DNA from: Candidatus Altimarinota bacterium
GTDB taxonomy: Bacteria > Patescibacteriota > Gracilibacteria > BD1-5 > UBA2023
Direction: 5' to 3'
Assembly: GCA_013268835.1 (NCBI GenBank)
Contig: JABFSX010000004.1
Coordinates: 248,001 to 312,000 of the forward strand
Length of the DNA: 64,000 bases
This document shows, piece after piece, positions 31,313-36,676 of the stretch. Under the pieces are notes generated by a model. That model worked only from the letters and a program-made list of their open reading frames with translations, did not search any database and was not told where the DNA came from. Position 1 is the first letter of the stretch. Each line of letters begins with the position of its first letter. Made by a program: the position numbers and the translations under genes.

Positions 31313-32728
31313 ATGGATTTCACATATATTATCCTCTGAATTTGTCTCCTCATTGTTCTTGCATTCGAGTTTGTTAATGGAATGAATGATACAGCCAATG
31401 CTGTTGCACCTGTTATCTATAGTCATTCTCTTGAGCCAAAGAAATCTGTTCTGATTGCTGCATTCCTCAACTTTCTCTGAGTACTATTTGGAGGAATTGC
31501 TGTTGCTATGAGTATCATTCATCTTCTTCCTCTCTCAACGATTGTAAGTCAACCAACAAATTTTGGAATTATTCTTGTAATATCAATCCTTGTTTCTGCT
31601 ATTATCTGGGATCTTGGCGCATGGTATCTTGCTCTTCCTGTATCAAGTTCTCATGCTCTTATTGGTTCTATTCTTGGAATCAGTATCACTCTTATGTTTA
31701 TACCCGTTGGTGCTGATACCATTCCTCATTGGGGAAAAGCTCAAGAGGTTATTGTAGGGCTTCTTATCTCTCCTCTTATCGGTTTTGGTTTTGCATTCCT
31801 TCTTATATATATTGCACATATTGTGCTTCGTAGAAAATCTTACTTTAAGGCACCAAAAACAGAAGAAGATCATCCTACATTTGCTATGAGAAGTGTTCTT
31901 ATTGGAGCATCTGCACTTGTGAGTTTTATGCATGGAAAAAATGATGGACAAAAAGGAGTAGGTATAGCTACGCTCATTCTCATTACTCTCCTTCCAGCAA
32001 ACTTCGCTATTAACCCAAATATGGATATCAAGGGTCTTAATAATGATATTCAAGTTATCGAAAAAACTCTCACACAAGTAAATGTTGAAAGTCTATCAAG
32101 TTCTGAAAAAACTCAATTTATCCAAACACAATCCAAACTTACAGAACTTAAAACACTAACAGAAAAATCCGATCTTTCCACAGGTGAAAAAGTAACACTA
32201 CGAAGTAATATACTTCATATTCAAGATAATTATAAATCTTTCAATACTTCTAAAAAAATTACATTTATTGAAAGTGCTTATGCTGGAGGATCCGAAACTA
32301 TGAGCCTGAATTCTATAGAAAAAAATATAAATAATCTTAGTCAGGCAACTGACTATGTACCTTGGTGGATTATCCTTATGGTTTCTATTGCTATTGGTTC
32401 AGGAACTATGATTTGATGGAAACGGATAGTAAAAACTATCTGAGAAAAAATCGGAAAACATAAAATGAACTATTCTCAAGCAGCATCAAGTGCACTTATC
32501 ACCGCTGGAACTATAGGAATCGCATCAAGTTTTGGTCTTCCTGTATCAACAACTCATGTGATGTCATCAAGTGTAGCAGGAACGATGGTAGAAGAACATG
32601 GTTGGAAAGGTGGAGTTGATCCACATATGATCAAACATATTCTCCTTGCTTGGATACTCACCATGCCTATAACAATAATTCTTGCTGGTACTATTTTCTA
32701 TGTGCTTCAACTCATCTTTTTACGATAA
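31313..32728 (+). CDS. pit: PiT-family inorganic phosphate transporter (long form)
   Basis: A 471-residue phosphate:cation symporter. The two PiT signature repeats are present: EFVNGMNDTANAV near residue 20 and FMHGKNDGQKGVG near residue 210, each with downstream LALPVSSSHALIG or FGLPVSTTHVM. Between them, residues 225-345 form a soluble insertion of about 120 residues (helical, Lys/Glu/Ser-rich, ending QATDYVPWW) on one membrane face. Four TGA codons are glycine. The 85-base hairpin-containing leader is described separately. A second, shorter PiT gene is at 49530. Confidence 0.93.
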
Positions 32729-32899: not shown

Positions 32900-33268
32900 A
32901 ATCTACTCAATTCATCAATCAATATTCACTTCTTGCTGGTAGATCAAGATGTGAATAAGGAGATTTTCGTGAGCATTAAAGGAGGTAATGACTGCACACT
33001 CTTCGAGAGAAGAGAAAAAACAAGTCTGCGATATATGTTGGACAATGTCCAACAGAAAATCAAGAATTGGCTCCAAATAGCCGTACTTCTTGCCAAAACA
33101 GAGCAGATTTCCTTCCTGGATTTCAGGAAAATCTTGTCCAGAATTTTCCGGAAAAACGGTATCCCGTTGACTGGGTATCGGAAAGATCTCAAGTGTGCAT
33201 GGCACTGTGAATGTTGCTAATTCCGCACAAGAGGCAGTTAGGTCCACCTTCGGGTGGCCTTTATTTTT
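32900..33268 (+). ncRNA. Candidate structured RNA of about 365 nt
   Basis: A region with its own promoter and terminator and unusually many hairpins: a 13-bp stem with one mismatch (32923-32935 with 32945-32957), CTCTTC-GAGA-GAAGAG with a GNRA loop (32999-33014), TGTTGGAC-AAT-GTCCAACA (33036-33054), nested CAAGAA/TTCTTG and GGCT/AGCC (33060-33092), and TTCCTG/CAGGAA (33112-33128). It ends in GGTCCACC-TTCG-GGTGGCC followed by T (33241-33268). The sequence is richer in G and C than the flanking intergenic DNA. I could not match it to RNase P RNA (no GGAAAGTCC or GGCTTAT pairing), tmRNA (no CCA end) or 6S RNA. Open frames on both strands exist but lack TGA-glycine. Confidence 0.55.
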
Positions 33269-33301
33269 GACTTTTTTATAACTTCCTATACACTCATCTC
33301 T

Positions 33302-33355
33302 ATGAATCACTTCAGCACTATCATCACGATTAAGATTATCTCTCCGCTCGGATAG
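33302..33355 (+). CDS. Attenuator leader peptide 1 (Thr/Ile-rich)
   Basis: A 17-residue peptide, MNHFSTIITIKIISPLG, then TAG. Seven of its 17 residues are Thr or Ile, like the thr operon leader peptide of enterobacteria. A TATACACT box lies 7 bases before the ATG. It is followed by a terminator hairpin at 33390, upstream of aspartate kinase. Ribosome stalling at Thr or Ile codons would control terminator formation. The peptide is read from sequence; the mechanism is inferred. Confidence 0.65.
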   Translation: MNHFSTIITIKIISPLG

Positions 33356-33389
33356 GTTCTTTGTCGTGAAATCAAACAAACACTACAAG

Positions 33390-33419
33390 CCTCTCCGAAC
33401 ATTCGGGGAGGTTTTTTTT
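33390..33419 (+). terminator. Attenuator terminator 1
   Basis: CCTCTCCGAA / TTCGGGGAGG stem (one G-U) with a 2-base loop, followed by eight T. It lies 35 bases after leader peptide 1. An upstream segment (CTCCGCTCGGATAGG, 33341-33355) could pair with the left arm and form an antiterminator. Confidence 0.7.
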
Positions 33420-33432
33420 ATAACACAATACT

Positions 33433-33621
33433 ATGTACTCAATCACTATTATTATCACCAAGAAGATTCTTCTCTACGAGCAGGTTCTTTTCTGATGATA
33501 TCAACTTCACAAGAAAACAATCCGCTCAAAAATGAGTGGATTTTTTTTAATGAAAATATTCGGAACCGCATTTCAGATGATTATCTTTAATAAAAAAACT
33601 AGCCCTATTCTTTATCTTTAA
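33433..33621 (+). CDS. Attenuator leader peptide 2 (Thr/Ile-rich), stop possibly lost
   Basis: A second leader starting MYSITIIITKKILL, again dominated by Ile and Thr. Its downstream sequence GCAGGTTCTTTTCTGATGA parallels leader 1, where GATAG then GTTCTTT follows; here CAG stands where leader 1 has its TAG stop. Since TGA is glycine here, the frame continues 62 codons through terminator 2 to a TAA at 33619. It may be translated only in its first part, or translation through the terminator may itself be the control. Confidence 0.5.
33519..33549 (+). terminator. Attenuator terminator 2
   Basis: AATCCGCTCA / TGAGTGGATT stem (one G-U), AAAA loop, followed by eight T. It lies 84 bases before the aspartate kinase start and inside the extended frame of leader 2. 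Confidence 0.75.
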
Positions 33622-33632
33622 TTAATTTTCTT

Positions 33633-35012
33633 ATGAATACTCATGTTATCAAGGTTGGTGGTGAAAACGCTTCAGATCTACGAACCGCAGAGTGGCTCGC
33701 AACACAATCTCAAAATGGTGAAAAAATCGCAGTCGCCATATCAGCACTTCGAACCAAATCACTCAAAACAACCGACGAGCTCCTCCGAGCACAGGAGGCT
33801 TTCTCAAAAACTGGAATACAATCTGCTCGAACGATACTAGAAAATCTATTTCAGGTTCATATCGAAACACTGAAAGAAGCTGGAATGTTCGATGATGAAC
33901 TCTATGGAAAACTCAGAGAACTATTTGAGTGATATTTCCCCGTGGATCTTGAACTAGGAAATGATATCCAAAAAGAACAACAATTTATCGGGTATGGAGA
34001 AGTGATGTCAGCACATGTTTTATCTCATATTCTCGCCACACGTTTTCAGATCAAAAATTCACTCGTAACACATGCATTTACTCAAAATGTAAATAGCACC
34101 TCTTCCCTCTCTGAGATTCTCAAAAATTCTGTCGGAAAACAAGTAGATCTCCTCTTGCCAGAATGAATAGTCATTGTGCCTTGATATGTCTCTGTCGATG
34201 ATAAAAGTATCTTAGAATATGGACGCTGATATACTGATAAAATGGCTGAAAGAATTGCGGTTTGACTCAGTGATCTAGGACATTCCCCAATTTTACATAT
34301 CCAAAAACAAGTTCCACTCCTCTCTTCTCATCCTGGAAACACCACAGGAACGCGAGTCATCTCAGATATGTCACACTGGACCGCAGCAGAAATAACTGGA
34401 GCAAGATGAGCCAATGCTCAAGTTCTCAATGAACATACTATTTCGAGTGATCTTGCAAAAAGAAATATTCCAGTATGGGTCTACAATCCTTTTGATACAA
34501 CAAGTGGAAAAAGCATTATTTCTGAAAATGGAAATCCAAATTCATGAATACTCTTTATAGATGGAAGAGATCATGTGAGCACCATAACGGTCTCTGGATT
34601 TGCGATGTCATGAGCATGACTTTTATCAAAACTCACCACTGTTTTTCTAGAACAAAAAATCTCCATAGATAGTATTTCATCATCTGAAACCGAGGTAACA
34701 TTTACAGCATATGGAGAACTTAGTCAAGAAAATAAAATGCTACTCTCTCGGAAAATCGAAGAAGTTCTCGGAGAGCAGTATACTATCGAAGTAAAAAATA
34801 ATCTCTGATTGATCTATTGTATCGGAGATAATCTCATATGAAATCCATGATTATTATCAAAAATAACTACTATTTTGGCTGAACAGGGCATAGATATCGA
34901 ATGTATTTCACAATCTCGAGGACAACGAGCTGTAACAATAGGAGTACATTCAGATAATCTGAGAAAGTGAGTACAAATTCTTCACGAGAATCTCATTGCA
35001 TTAAAATACTAA
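33633..35012 (+). CDS. lysC: Aspartate kinase
   Basis: A 459-residue aspartokinase, first enzyme of the aspartate pathway to Lys, Thr and Met. It opens HVIKVGGENASD (K-x-G-G), has YGRGYTDKMAERIAVG near residue 205 (the G-R-G-G-S-D motif in altered form), AAEITGARGANAQVLNEHTI and two C-terminal ACT domains (VSGFAMSGAGLLSKLT and GDNLIGNPGLLSKIT). Many TGA codons fall at conserved glycines, for example in GRG and in both ACT loops. It is preceded by a double Thr/Ile-rich attenuator. No other aspartate-pathway gene is in the window. Confidence 0.92.
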
Positions 35013-35071
35013 TTTTTTGCCTTTTCCCCTCTTTTTTGTATATTAGACAGGATTTTTTATACTTTTTTACT

Positions 35072-36676
35072 ATGTCTTCTCCGAACTATTCAACCGAATC
35101 ACTGGATCGAATTAATAAACTCGAACGAATTAAGACACTATGAGTAGATCCTTTTGCTACTCGGTTCGATACAACTCATCTTATCAAGGAAATCAATGAA
35201 ACCTATTCAGCAAAAATCAATACTGAAAATGGGGATGTAAGCCCTTTTCCAACTGTGGAAGAGGTTATTGCGAATCCTAAAGAAACATATTCTATCGCTG
35301 GACGAATTGTCTTACATCGAAGTTTTTGAAAGATTTGTTTCGCCTCTCTTTCTGATGGAATACAAAGAATCCAGATTCTCTTCTCAAGAGATAATTGTAG
35401 CATACGTGTAAACGATGAACTAAAATCTGAACTTATTGGATCGAATGAAACTATCACGGCTTACAAATTCGCTGAAAAACTCATCGATCTTGGGGATTTT
35501 ATCGGAGTTACGGGGGAACTTTTCTATACTCACAAGTGAGAACTCACACTATTTGTGAAAGAATTTACATTTCTCACGAAGGCTATCCGTCCACTCCCTG
35601 AAAAATTCCATGGACTCAATGATCAAGAGGTTCTCTATAGAGAGAGAAATCTCGATCTTGTTTCAAATGATGAAACATTCAAGAGATTTAAGCTTCGATC
35701 ACATATCATTCGAGAGATGAGAAGGTTCTTTGAATCAAAATGATTTGATGAAGTAGAAACAGCTATTCTCCAGGCACAAGCAGGAGGTGCTATGGCTCGT
35801 ACATTTTCGACCCATCACAATGATCTCGATCATGATTTTGTACTTCGTATTTCACTCGAACTAGATCTCAAAAGAACTATTGGCGGTGGATTTTCACGTG
35901 TTTTTGAGATTGGGAAAAATTTCCGAAATGAAGGAACTGATCCATCACATCTTCAAGAATTCACTATGTGTGAATGGTATGCTGCATATGCTGATCTCGA
36001 TACCAATAAAAAATGGACTGAAGAAATGTTCCATCATATTGCATCAATATGTCTTCCATCTCCAATAGTTCAAGTAATGAATAAAAATGGAGACCTTATT
36101 GATGTTGATCTCTCAGCCAAATTTGATGAAAAAAGATTCCCAGAACTTCTGAGTGAATATGCTGGAGTTGATATGTTCAATGATTCTATGGAACAACTTC
36201 AGAAAATCGCTAAAGAAGTAGGAGTAGAGAAAATAACTTGAGTAGGAAGAGCAAATCTCCTTGATGATATCTATAAAAAAACGGCTCGAGCGAAGCTCAT
36301 ACAGCCTACATTTGTTTTTGATTATCCGGAAGATCTCAAGCCACTAGCACGACCCAATGGAGATGGAACCGCTTGTTGTTATCAACTGGTTATCAATGGT
36401 TGGGAGGTAGTAAATTCTTATGGAGAATTGATTAATCCTATCGTTCAAAGATCACTATTTGAGGTACAATCTCTTGCAAAAGCCTGAGGAGATGAGGAAG
36501 CTATGGAAGTTGATGAGGTATTTCTCAAAGCTATGGAACATGGATTTCCTCCGATGACCGGTTCTGGATTTGGTATCGATCGTCTTATTACTCTTTTTAC
36601 AGGACAATGAAATCTTCGTGACGTTGTACTATTTCCCACCATGCGACCTATCTCTATAGAAAATTCTTCTAAATAA
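35072..36676 (+). CDS. lysS: Lysyl-tRNA synthetase (class II)
   Basis: A 534-residue LysRS. An OB-fold anticodon domain ([13 protein letters not shown]) is followed by the catalytic domain: motif 1 region ([12 protein letters not shown]), motif 2 ([19 protein letters not shown]), EWYAAYADL, and motif 3 ([15 protein letters not shown]). GSGFGIDRL is diagnostic of class II. Seven TGA codons are read as glycine. A TATACT box (35058-35063) lies 8 bases before the ATG. It starts 60 bases after lysC. Confidence 0.96.

Follow-up and report, generated by a model that had tools for sequence, protein, structure and literature searches.

How might an aspartokinase-like gene be controlled in a reduced gracilibacterial genome in which the rest of the biosynthetic pathway is not found? 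At the locus considered here, two small open reading frames (ORFs), each followed by a terminator, precede such a gene, and the initial annotation interpreted them as tandem Thr/Ile-rich attenuators of lysC. All coordinates refer to the window, i.e. the whole stretch of 64,000 nucleotides that was analyzed; G000 denotes the genome to which the window belongs and all other G numbers denote relatives. Based on the features computed here, namely leader conservation, terminators, antiterminator complementarity, codon placement and the agreement between leader codons and operon products in relatives, we suggest that the locus very probably holds two serial copies of a trp/thr-type attenuator of transcription, mediated by the ribosome, that would control the aspartokinase-like gene. 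The signals would be Lys and Thr and, perhaps, Ile.

Two leader units before an aspartokinase-like gene

As initially annotated, two modules of a leader ORF and a terminator are present at 33302-33550 upstream of the aspartokinase-like gene, all on the forward strand. In unit 1, the promoter (33267-33294; TTGACT and TACACT separated by 16 nt, a 9/12 match) ends 7 nt before the ATG of leader 1, and the mRNA of leader 1 is probably leaderless. Leader 1 (33302-33355) encodes MNHFSTIITIKIISPLG and stops with TAG. The control-codon hairpin of this unit (33323-33370) pairs 33323-33341 with 33353-33370, the latter strand holding the motif GTTCTTT, and is more stable than shuffled sequences (-13.5 kcal/mol, z -3.5, p 0.005). 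Antiterminator segment 2 (33347-33359; CTCGGATAGGTTC) pairs with 33387-33399 (-13.7 kcal/mol, z -2.4, p 0.02), while terminator 1 (33387-33419) consists of a 12-bp hairpin at 33387-33414 followed by a T tract. The codons upstream of segment 2 are Lys (16 nt), Ile (19 nt) and Thr (22 nt). Unit 1 has the complete set of elements of an attenuator, i.e. a leader that starts and stops ahead of the terminator, control codons, an intrinsic terminator, an antiterminator, a control hairpin and the fitting codon placement. In the region as a whole, five terminator-like sites are seen vs 1.7 expected from shuffles.

Unit 2 has the same elements except for the stop. Leader 2 (33433-33492 up to the first TGA) encodes MYSITIIITKKILLYEQVLF, and its codons upstream of segment 2 are Lys (15 nt), Lys (18 nt) and Thr (21 nt). 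Control-codon hairpin 2 (33449-33501) pairs 33449-33471 with 33482-33501 (-12.1 kcal/mol, z -2.1, p 0.045). Segment 2 of this unit (33477-33487; CGAGCAGGTTC) pairs with 33518-33528, a pairing that on its own is suggestive only (z -1.6, p 0.09), and terminator 2 (33519-33548) has a 10-bp hairpin at 33519-33542 and a T tract. Within segment 2, a CAG (33481-33483) occupies the position of the TAG of leader 1, and the TGA TGA at 33493-33498, a well-placed stop under the standard code, is read as Gly Gly in code 25. Because of these two features, leader 2 has no stop codon between its start at 33433 and terminator 2 in code 25, and its frame crosses the terminator to a TAA at 33619-33621 that lies 11 nt upstream of the ATG of the aspartokinase-like gene (33633). 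The leaders of relatives stop before their terminators. Unit 2 is, therefore, probably weakened, or it couples translation of the leader to that of the downstream gene; alteration or decay of this unit is probable.

The doubling and its proposed origin by duplication are supported by comparison of the two leader modules, which align with a score of 40 while the best of 2000 shuffles reaches 34, and which have AGGTTCTTT in common. Leader 2 scores higher against the leader of G017 (55) than against leader 1 and, therefore, the duplication is not necessarily recent. The motif GTTCTTT, initially taken as a trace of the duplication, is indeed shared by the related leaders; however, it also forms the 3' strand of the control-codon hairpin opposite AAG-containing codons, and there is therefore a structural reason for its presence in both units besides common descent. 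The tandem arrangement is found only in G000, and relatives have single copies. When a second tandem was searched for among the relatives, only G352 had two candidate ORFs, the first of which is not followed by a convincing terminator.

Leaders, pairings and codon placement in relatives

We searched 353 genomes of the class Gracilibacteria for aspartokinase and read the upstream regions in the 108 with a match. Using as a criterion a nine-residue window with at least six Lys or Thr residues in an ORF of leader size, Lys/Thr-rich leaders were found in 23 of the 108 regions; shuffles gave 0.1 and the reverse strand gave none, and no comparable excess was seen with control residue pairs in the same regions. 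In total, the approximately 108 aspartokinase loci of the class yielded 35 leader/terminator modules beyond the two in the window. Among the f1 genomes listed, the aspartokinase-like gene is present in three of 27 (G000, G007 and G017), a patchy distribution within the family, and both G007 (MTHRNTIITKKIFSPLG) and G017 (MTHRNTIITKKISSPIG) have a single leader with promoter and terminator. In the next family of the order, leaders followed by a terminator are present in G033 (MNTKIITKQTKPVGFSPLVFVL, read from an internal ATG), G121 (beginning MFNMIITSIITKTFGESL) and G040 (MERIISTIITIKKLFRVSL, identified by eye). Outside the class, aspartokinase is rare, and G641 has MNNFGKTTKKTAKTLF followed by a terminator. 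Thus, leader peptide and hairpins are conserved upstream of the same gene in relatives, in single copies, and the proposed attenuation logic is well supported.

The gene and its leader do not always change together. The aspartokinase-like protein of G000 is about 61-62% identical to its G007 counterpart over the full length, while that of G017 is only 23% identical to the protein encoded in the window. G017 (L011/L049) and G007 (L002), which belong to one genus, have near-identical leaders and the same lysS neighbor, yet there is only distant similarity between their aspartokinase-like proteins; it seems that the leader persists where the gene is replaced or changes very fast. In G040 (L035), the aspartokinase-like gene is broken by an in-frame TAA and is either a pseudogene or an assembly error, while leader and terminator are intact.

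The position of the promoter is a recurrent feature. For 15 of 36 leaders, a promoter matching at no fewer than nine of 12 positions has a -10 element whose end lies 5-10 nt upstream of the leader ATG, while 0.98 are expected and 100 shuffles gave at most three. A second group of promoters lies near 19-24 nt before the ATG. Shine-Dalgarno sequences are not enriched before the leader ATGs of the set.

Alternative pairing was assessed in 37 modules (the 35 of relatives and the two of the window) by comparing the 3' end of the leader with the 5' arm of the terminator against shuffles. Antiterminator complementarity was significant at p<0.05 in 28 of the 37 (mean z -2.9), and the control-codon hairpin in 11. 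The paired strands vary by family (CGGATAGG/CCTCTCCG, GGGAAGGACGGCTGC/GCAGCCCCTTCCC and CTAGCGGAG/ATCCGCTAA) and, therefore, the pairing is kept while its sequence changes.

Because the leaders were selected on their Lys/Thr/Ile content, their composition is no independent evidence; the position of the codons, however, is. When the first paired base of segment 2 is used to align the leaders, 68% have Lys and 22% have Thr as the codon 15-17 nt upstream, and 89% have one of the two. Lys and Thr together fill a fraction of 0.71 of the positions 12-26 nt upstream of segment 2 vs 0.17 elsewhere. A peak as sharp as this was never reached in 5000 trials in which the segment-2 offsets were permuted among leaders, and the peak is less sharp if stop, start or terminator serves as the anchor. 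Because a stalled ribosome shields about 12-15 nt on the 3' side of the codon in its A-site, stalling on the codons of this peak would leave segment 2 free. As for the leaders having been described as Thr/Ile-rich, Thr and Ile codons are present, but Lys is also conserved and is the best-placed control codon. A plain Thr/Ile reading is incomplete, as the codon 15-17 nt upstream of segment 2 is mostly Lys.

Leader codons also follow the product of the downstream operon. Among standard-code relatives, 13 Lys-rich leaders (62 Lys and 13 Thr) stand before a lysC that has dap or lysA genes downstream, while five Thr-rich leaders (35 Thr and 4 Lys) precede genes for aspartokinase-homoserine dehydrogenase, with thrB or thrC nearby in several cases. 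G258 (L089, L128) and G236 (L068, L078) each have one leader of either type, the Lys leader before the lysC operon and the Thr leader before the aspartokinase-homoserine dehydrogenase gene, and these two genomes offer a ready-made internal control for attenuator specificity. A mixed leader in G319 (MKFVTMITTMTKITK), located before aspartokinase, asd and dapB, was left out of both groups. In the operons tested, Pfam confirms asd, dapB, dapA, a lysA-type decarboxylase, homoserine dehydrogenase and threonine synthase; the remaining assignments, including thrB, were made by eye from translated ORFs. This match covers 18 operons of relatives, G000 itself being without a pathway to compare. Judged from sequence, the agreement between leader and product is the strongest sign that the leaders may act as sensors.

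An orphan target gene and competing explanations

The gene that would be regulated (33633-35012) encodes a protein with AA_kinase and ACT domains. Its product scores 114 bits with TIGR00657 vs a cut-off of 208.7, and aspartokinases in the PDB match it at E 2e-12. The protein keeps the Lys of the K-GG motif as well as the GE and GRG-xTD motifs around the amino-acid site, and has QKQVP where TDVDG is expected. By its sequence, the gene initially labeled lysC appears to be a divergent aspartokinase-like gene that lies below the curated aspartokinase cut-off. It contains 13 in-frame TGAs, five of which coincide with Gly columns that do not vary among six relatives, those of GRG and PGY among them; TGA is thus read as Gly in G000. 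The same reading has been reported for bacteria of the BD1-5 group (PMC4032931).

The next gene is lysS (35072-36676, forward strand) for lysyl-tRNA synthetase. It has a promoter-like site of its own (35017-35044; TTGCCT-16-TATATT) and, therefore, at most part of lysS expression would be under attenuator control. The same site is present in G007 and, as TTGCGT-16-TATATT, in G017. lysS is also found 3' of the aspartokinase-like gene in G007, G017 and G058, and a gene resembling diaminopimelate (DAP) decarboxylase takes this position in G033 (L005), G036 (L117) and G229 (L095); either downstream gene points to lysine. In G033 and G036, asd, hom or dapA were not found, and the pairing of the aspartokinase-like with the DAP-decarboxylase-like gene possibly reflects an unusual lysine-related function. 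On the 5' side, a phosphate-permease-like gene (31313-32728) and a further hairpin (33244-33257) lie upstream. The phosphate-permease-like gene sits between glmS and the leader in G000, and in G007 and G017 glmS is directly 5' of the leader.

The families of homoserine dehydrogenase, aspartate-semialdehyde dehydrogenase and DHDPS, as well as the Orn/DAP/Arg decarboxylase and PALP families, are absent from G000, G007 and G017, while control genomes were positive. As asd, hom, dapA, lysA and PALP genes were not found in G000, its aspartokinase-like gene is an orphan. Because this genome is 94% complete, chance absence of all five families is unlikely, though not impossible. Feedback by the end product of the gene, therefore, makes no sense in G000, and the surprise initially expressed at attenuation in so poor a biosynthesizer was justified.

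In the mechanism that we infer, including the leaderless start, the stalling, the regulatory response and the behavior of unit 2, RNA polymerase would begin the transcript at the ATG of leader 1 or close to it, and this leaderless or nearly leaderless start would be loaded by a ribosome. If charged tRNA-Lys, tRNA-Thr or tRNA-Ile were scarce, the ribosome would stall on the Thr-Ile-Lys codons, approximately 15-25 nt before segment 2, and open the control-codon hairpin; segment 2 and the 5' terminator arm would then pair, and transcription would go on. With ample amino acids, the ribosome would reach the TAG and cover segment 2, the terminator would form and transcription would end. A polymerase that passes unit 1 would then encounter a second unit of like design where, in code 25, a running ribosome would enter the hairpin and continue translation until 11 nt before the aspartokinase-like gene. 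In equilibrium folding, stalling of a ribosome on the control codon does not keep the terminator from prevailing; therefore, the switch, if real, needs kinetic, co-transcriptional folding, which is a general need of such attenuators.

Other explanations of these features differ widely in plausibility. That the terminators simply belong to upstream genes and the small ORFs arose by chance would fit with the phosphate permease gene ending at 32728 and with the extra hairpin at 33244-33257, but promoter, leader and terminator recur in this order across families, 23 Lys/Thr-rich leaders vs 0.1 expected were found, and a complementary antiterminator of its own lies before each terminator. We consider chance extremely improbable; in aggregate, shuffles, reverse strand, control residue pairs, pairing and codon placement rule it out. 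Strong hairpins 5' of a lysine-family gene could also form a metabolite riboswitch (L-box, T-box or other) or a protein-binding leader in which the ORFs are incidental. At gathering score, however, Rfam finds only two tRNAs in the whole window, so that no family, L-box and T-box included, matches the locus, searches of the locus at E<=10 give weak sub-threshold hits only (E>0.07), and a riboswitch leaves codon content, codon placement and the codon-product match unexplained, making this alternative very improbable.

It is less easy to dismiss, if still unlikely, that attenuators and aspartokinase-like gene alike have been left over from an aspartate-family pathway since lost, and that the switch regulates nothing useful. 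The missing pathway genes, the lost stop of leader 2, the interrupted gene in G040 and the retention of the gene in only three of the 27 f1 genomes listed fit with such decay. By contrast, leader 1 retains start, stop, control codons, both alternative pairings and promoter, the G000 protein is full-length with ACT domains and approximately 61% identical to its G007 counterpart throughout, and G007 and G017 keep leader, terminator and the adjoining lysS. For unit 2, it is conceivable but rather improbable that ribosomes cross terminator 2 and couple translation to the aspartokinase-like gene so that there is no second attenuator: the frame 33433-33621 is open in code 25 and its TAA closely precedes the ATG at 33633, but the composition of leader 2 is unremarkable past residue 20, no relative has a read-through leader, and the CAG is possibly an assembly or sequencing error.

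We further speculate that in an auxotrophic, host-dependent cell the attenuator has ceased to control biosynthesis and instead senses Lys/Thr/Ile starvation to switch on an aspartokinase-like ACT-domain protein with a new function, and that TGA recoding turned the second copy into a read-through coupling leader; as a combined proposal, this is doubtful. The locus raises the questions of why a starvation switch on an aspartokinase-like protein persists without detectable asd, hom or dapA, and what effect a lost leader stop has where TGA no longer terminates translation. An attenuator would imply coupling of transcription and translation in Gracilibacteria cells and provide a readout of the amino acids sensed. 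With 35 modules in relatives, the codon-product match and the spacing to the edge of the ribosome, the mechanism is testable in E. coli.

Comparison with known attenuators

For attenuation in bacteria of the Candidate Phyla Radiation (CPR) or Patescibacteria, nothing relevant was found in the literature searched, and ribosome-mediated attenuation is apparently new to CPR bacteria as far as this literature shows. If the mechanism holds, it would be the first amino-acid attenuator described in this radiation and, within the same literature, the leaders would be the first set of leader-peptide attenuators for lysine genes. On the basis of the genomic data, the occurrence in this bacterial group, leaders that sense Lys, a tandem arrangement in a genome with recoded TGA and a target gene that is an orphan would all be new.

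In other bacteria, lysine genes are under RNA control by the L-box lysine riboswitch (PMC1262725). The locus resembles this system in its proposed RNA-level control 5' of a lysine-family gene and differs in lacking an Rfam match and in that sensing would apparently occur via ribosome and tRNA rather than via a lysine aptamer. Leaderless leader peptides are known from Streptomyces (leuL, trpL and ilvL; PMC8079986) and from mycobacteria (Cys uORFs; PMC4633059). As described in the available text of these two reports, the actinobacterial attenuators are likewise translated from the very 5' end and have codons that match the operon; they belong to another phylum and respond to other amino acids, and no Lys-rich leader is described in that text. 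Some actinobacterial attenuators have no terminator or antiterminator (PMC1262725).

A further close parallel is the enterobacterial thr attenuator (thrL; Rfam RF00506 Thr_leader), like which the locus would work although it does not belong to that Rfam family. The locus differs from it in having Lys codons in the key place, a tandem arrangement, a promoter abutting the leader ATG, a genetic code in which TGA is not a stop and a genome in which no homoserine dehydrogenase was found; moreover, RF00506 scores 17 bits at best vs a gathering score of 55, so that no RNA homology is detectable. Both have a short leader containing Thr and Ile codons, a control hairpin, an antiterminator and a terminator, and in both an aspartokinase gene lies downstream. 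The resemblance extends to standard-code relatives, in which the leaders of G148 (MSTIQSTTTIITTTTTGSLMR) and G258:C2 (MNAAKIIITTTTTTTIM), both located before aspartokinase-homoserine dehydrogenase genes, are strikingly similar to thrL.
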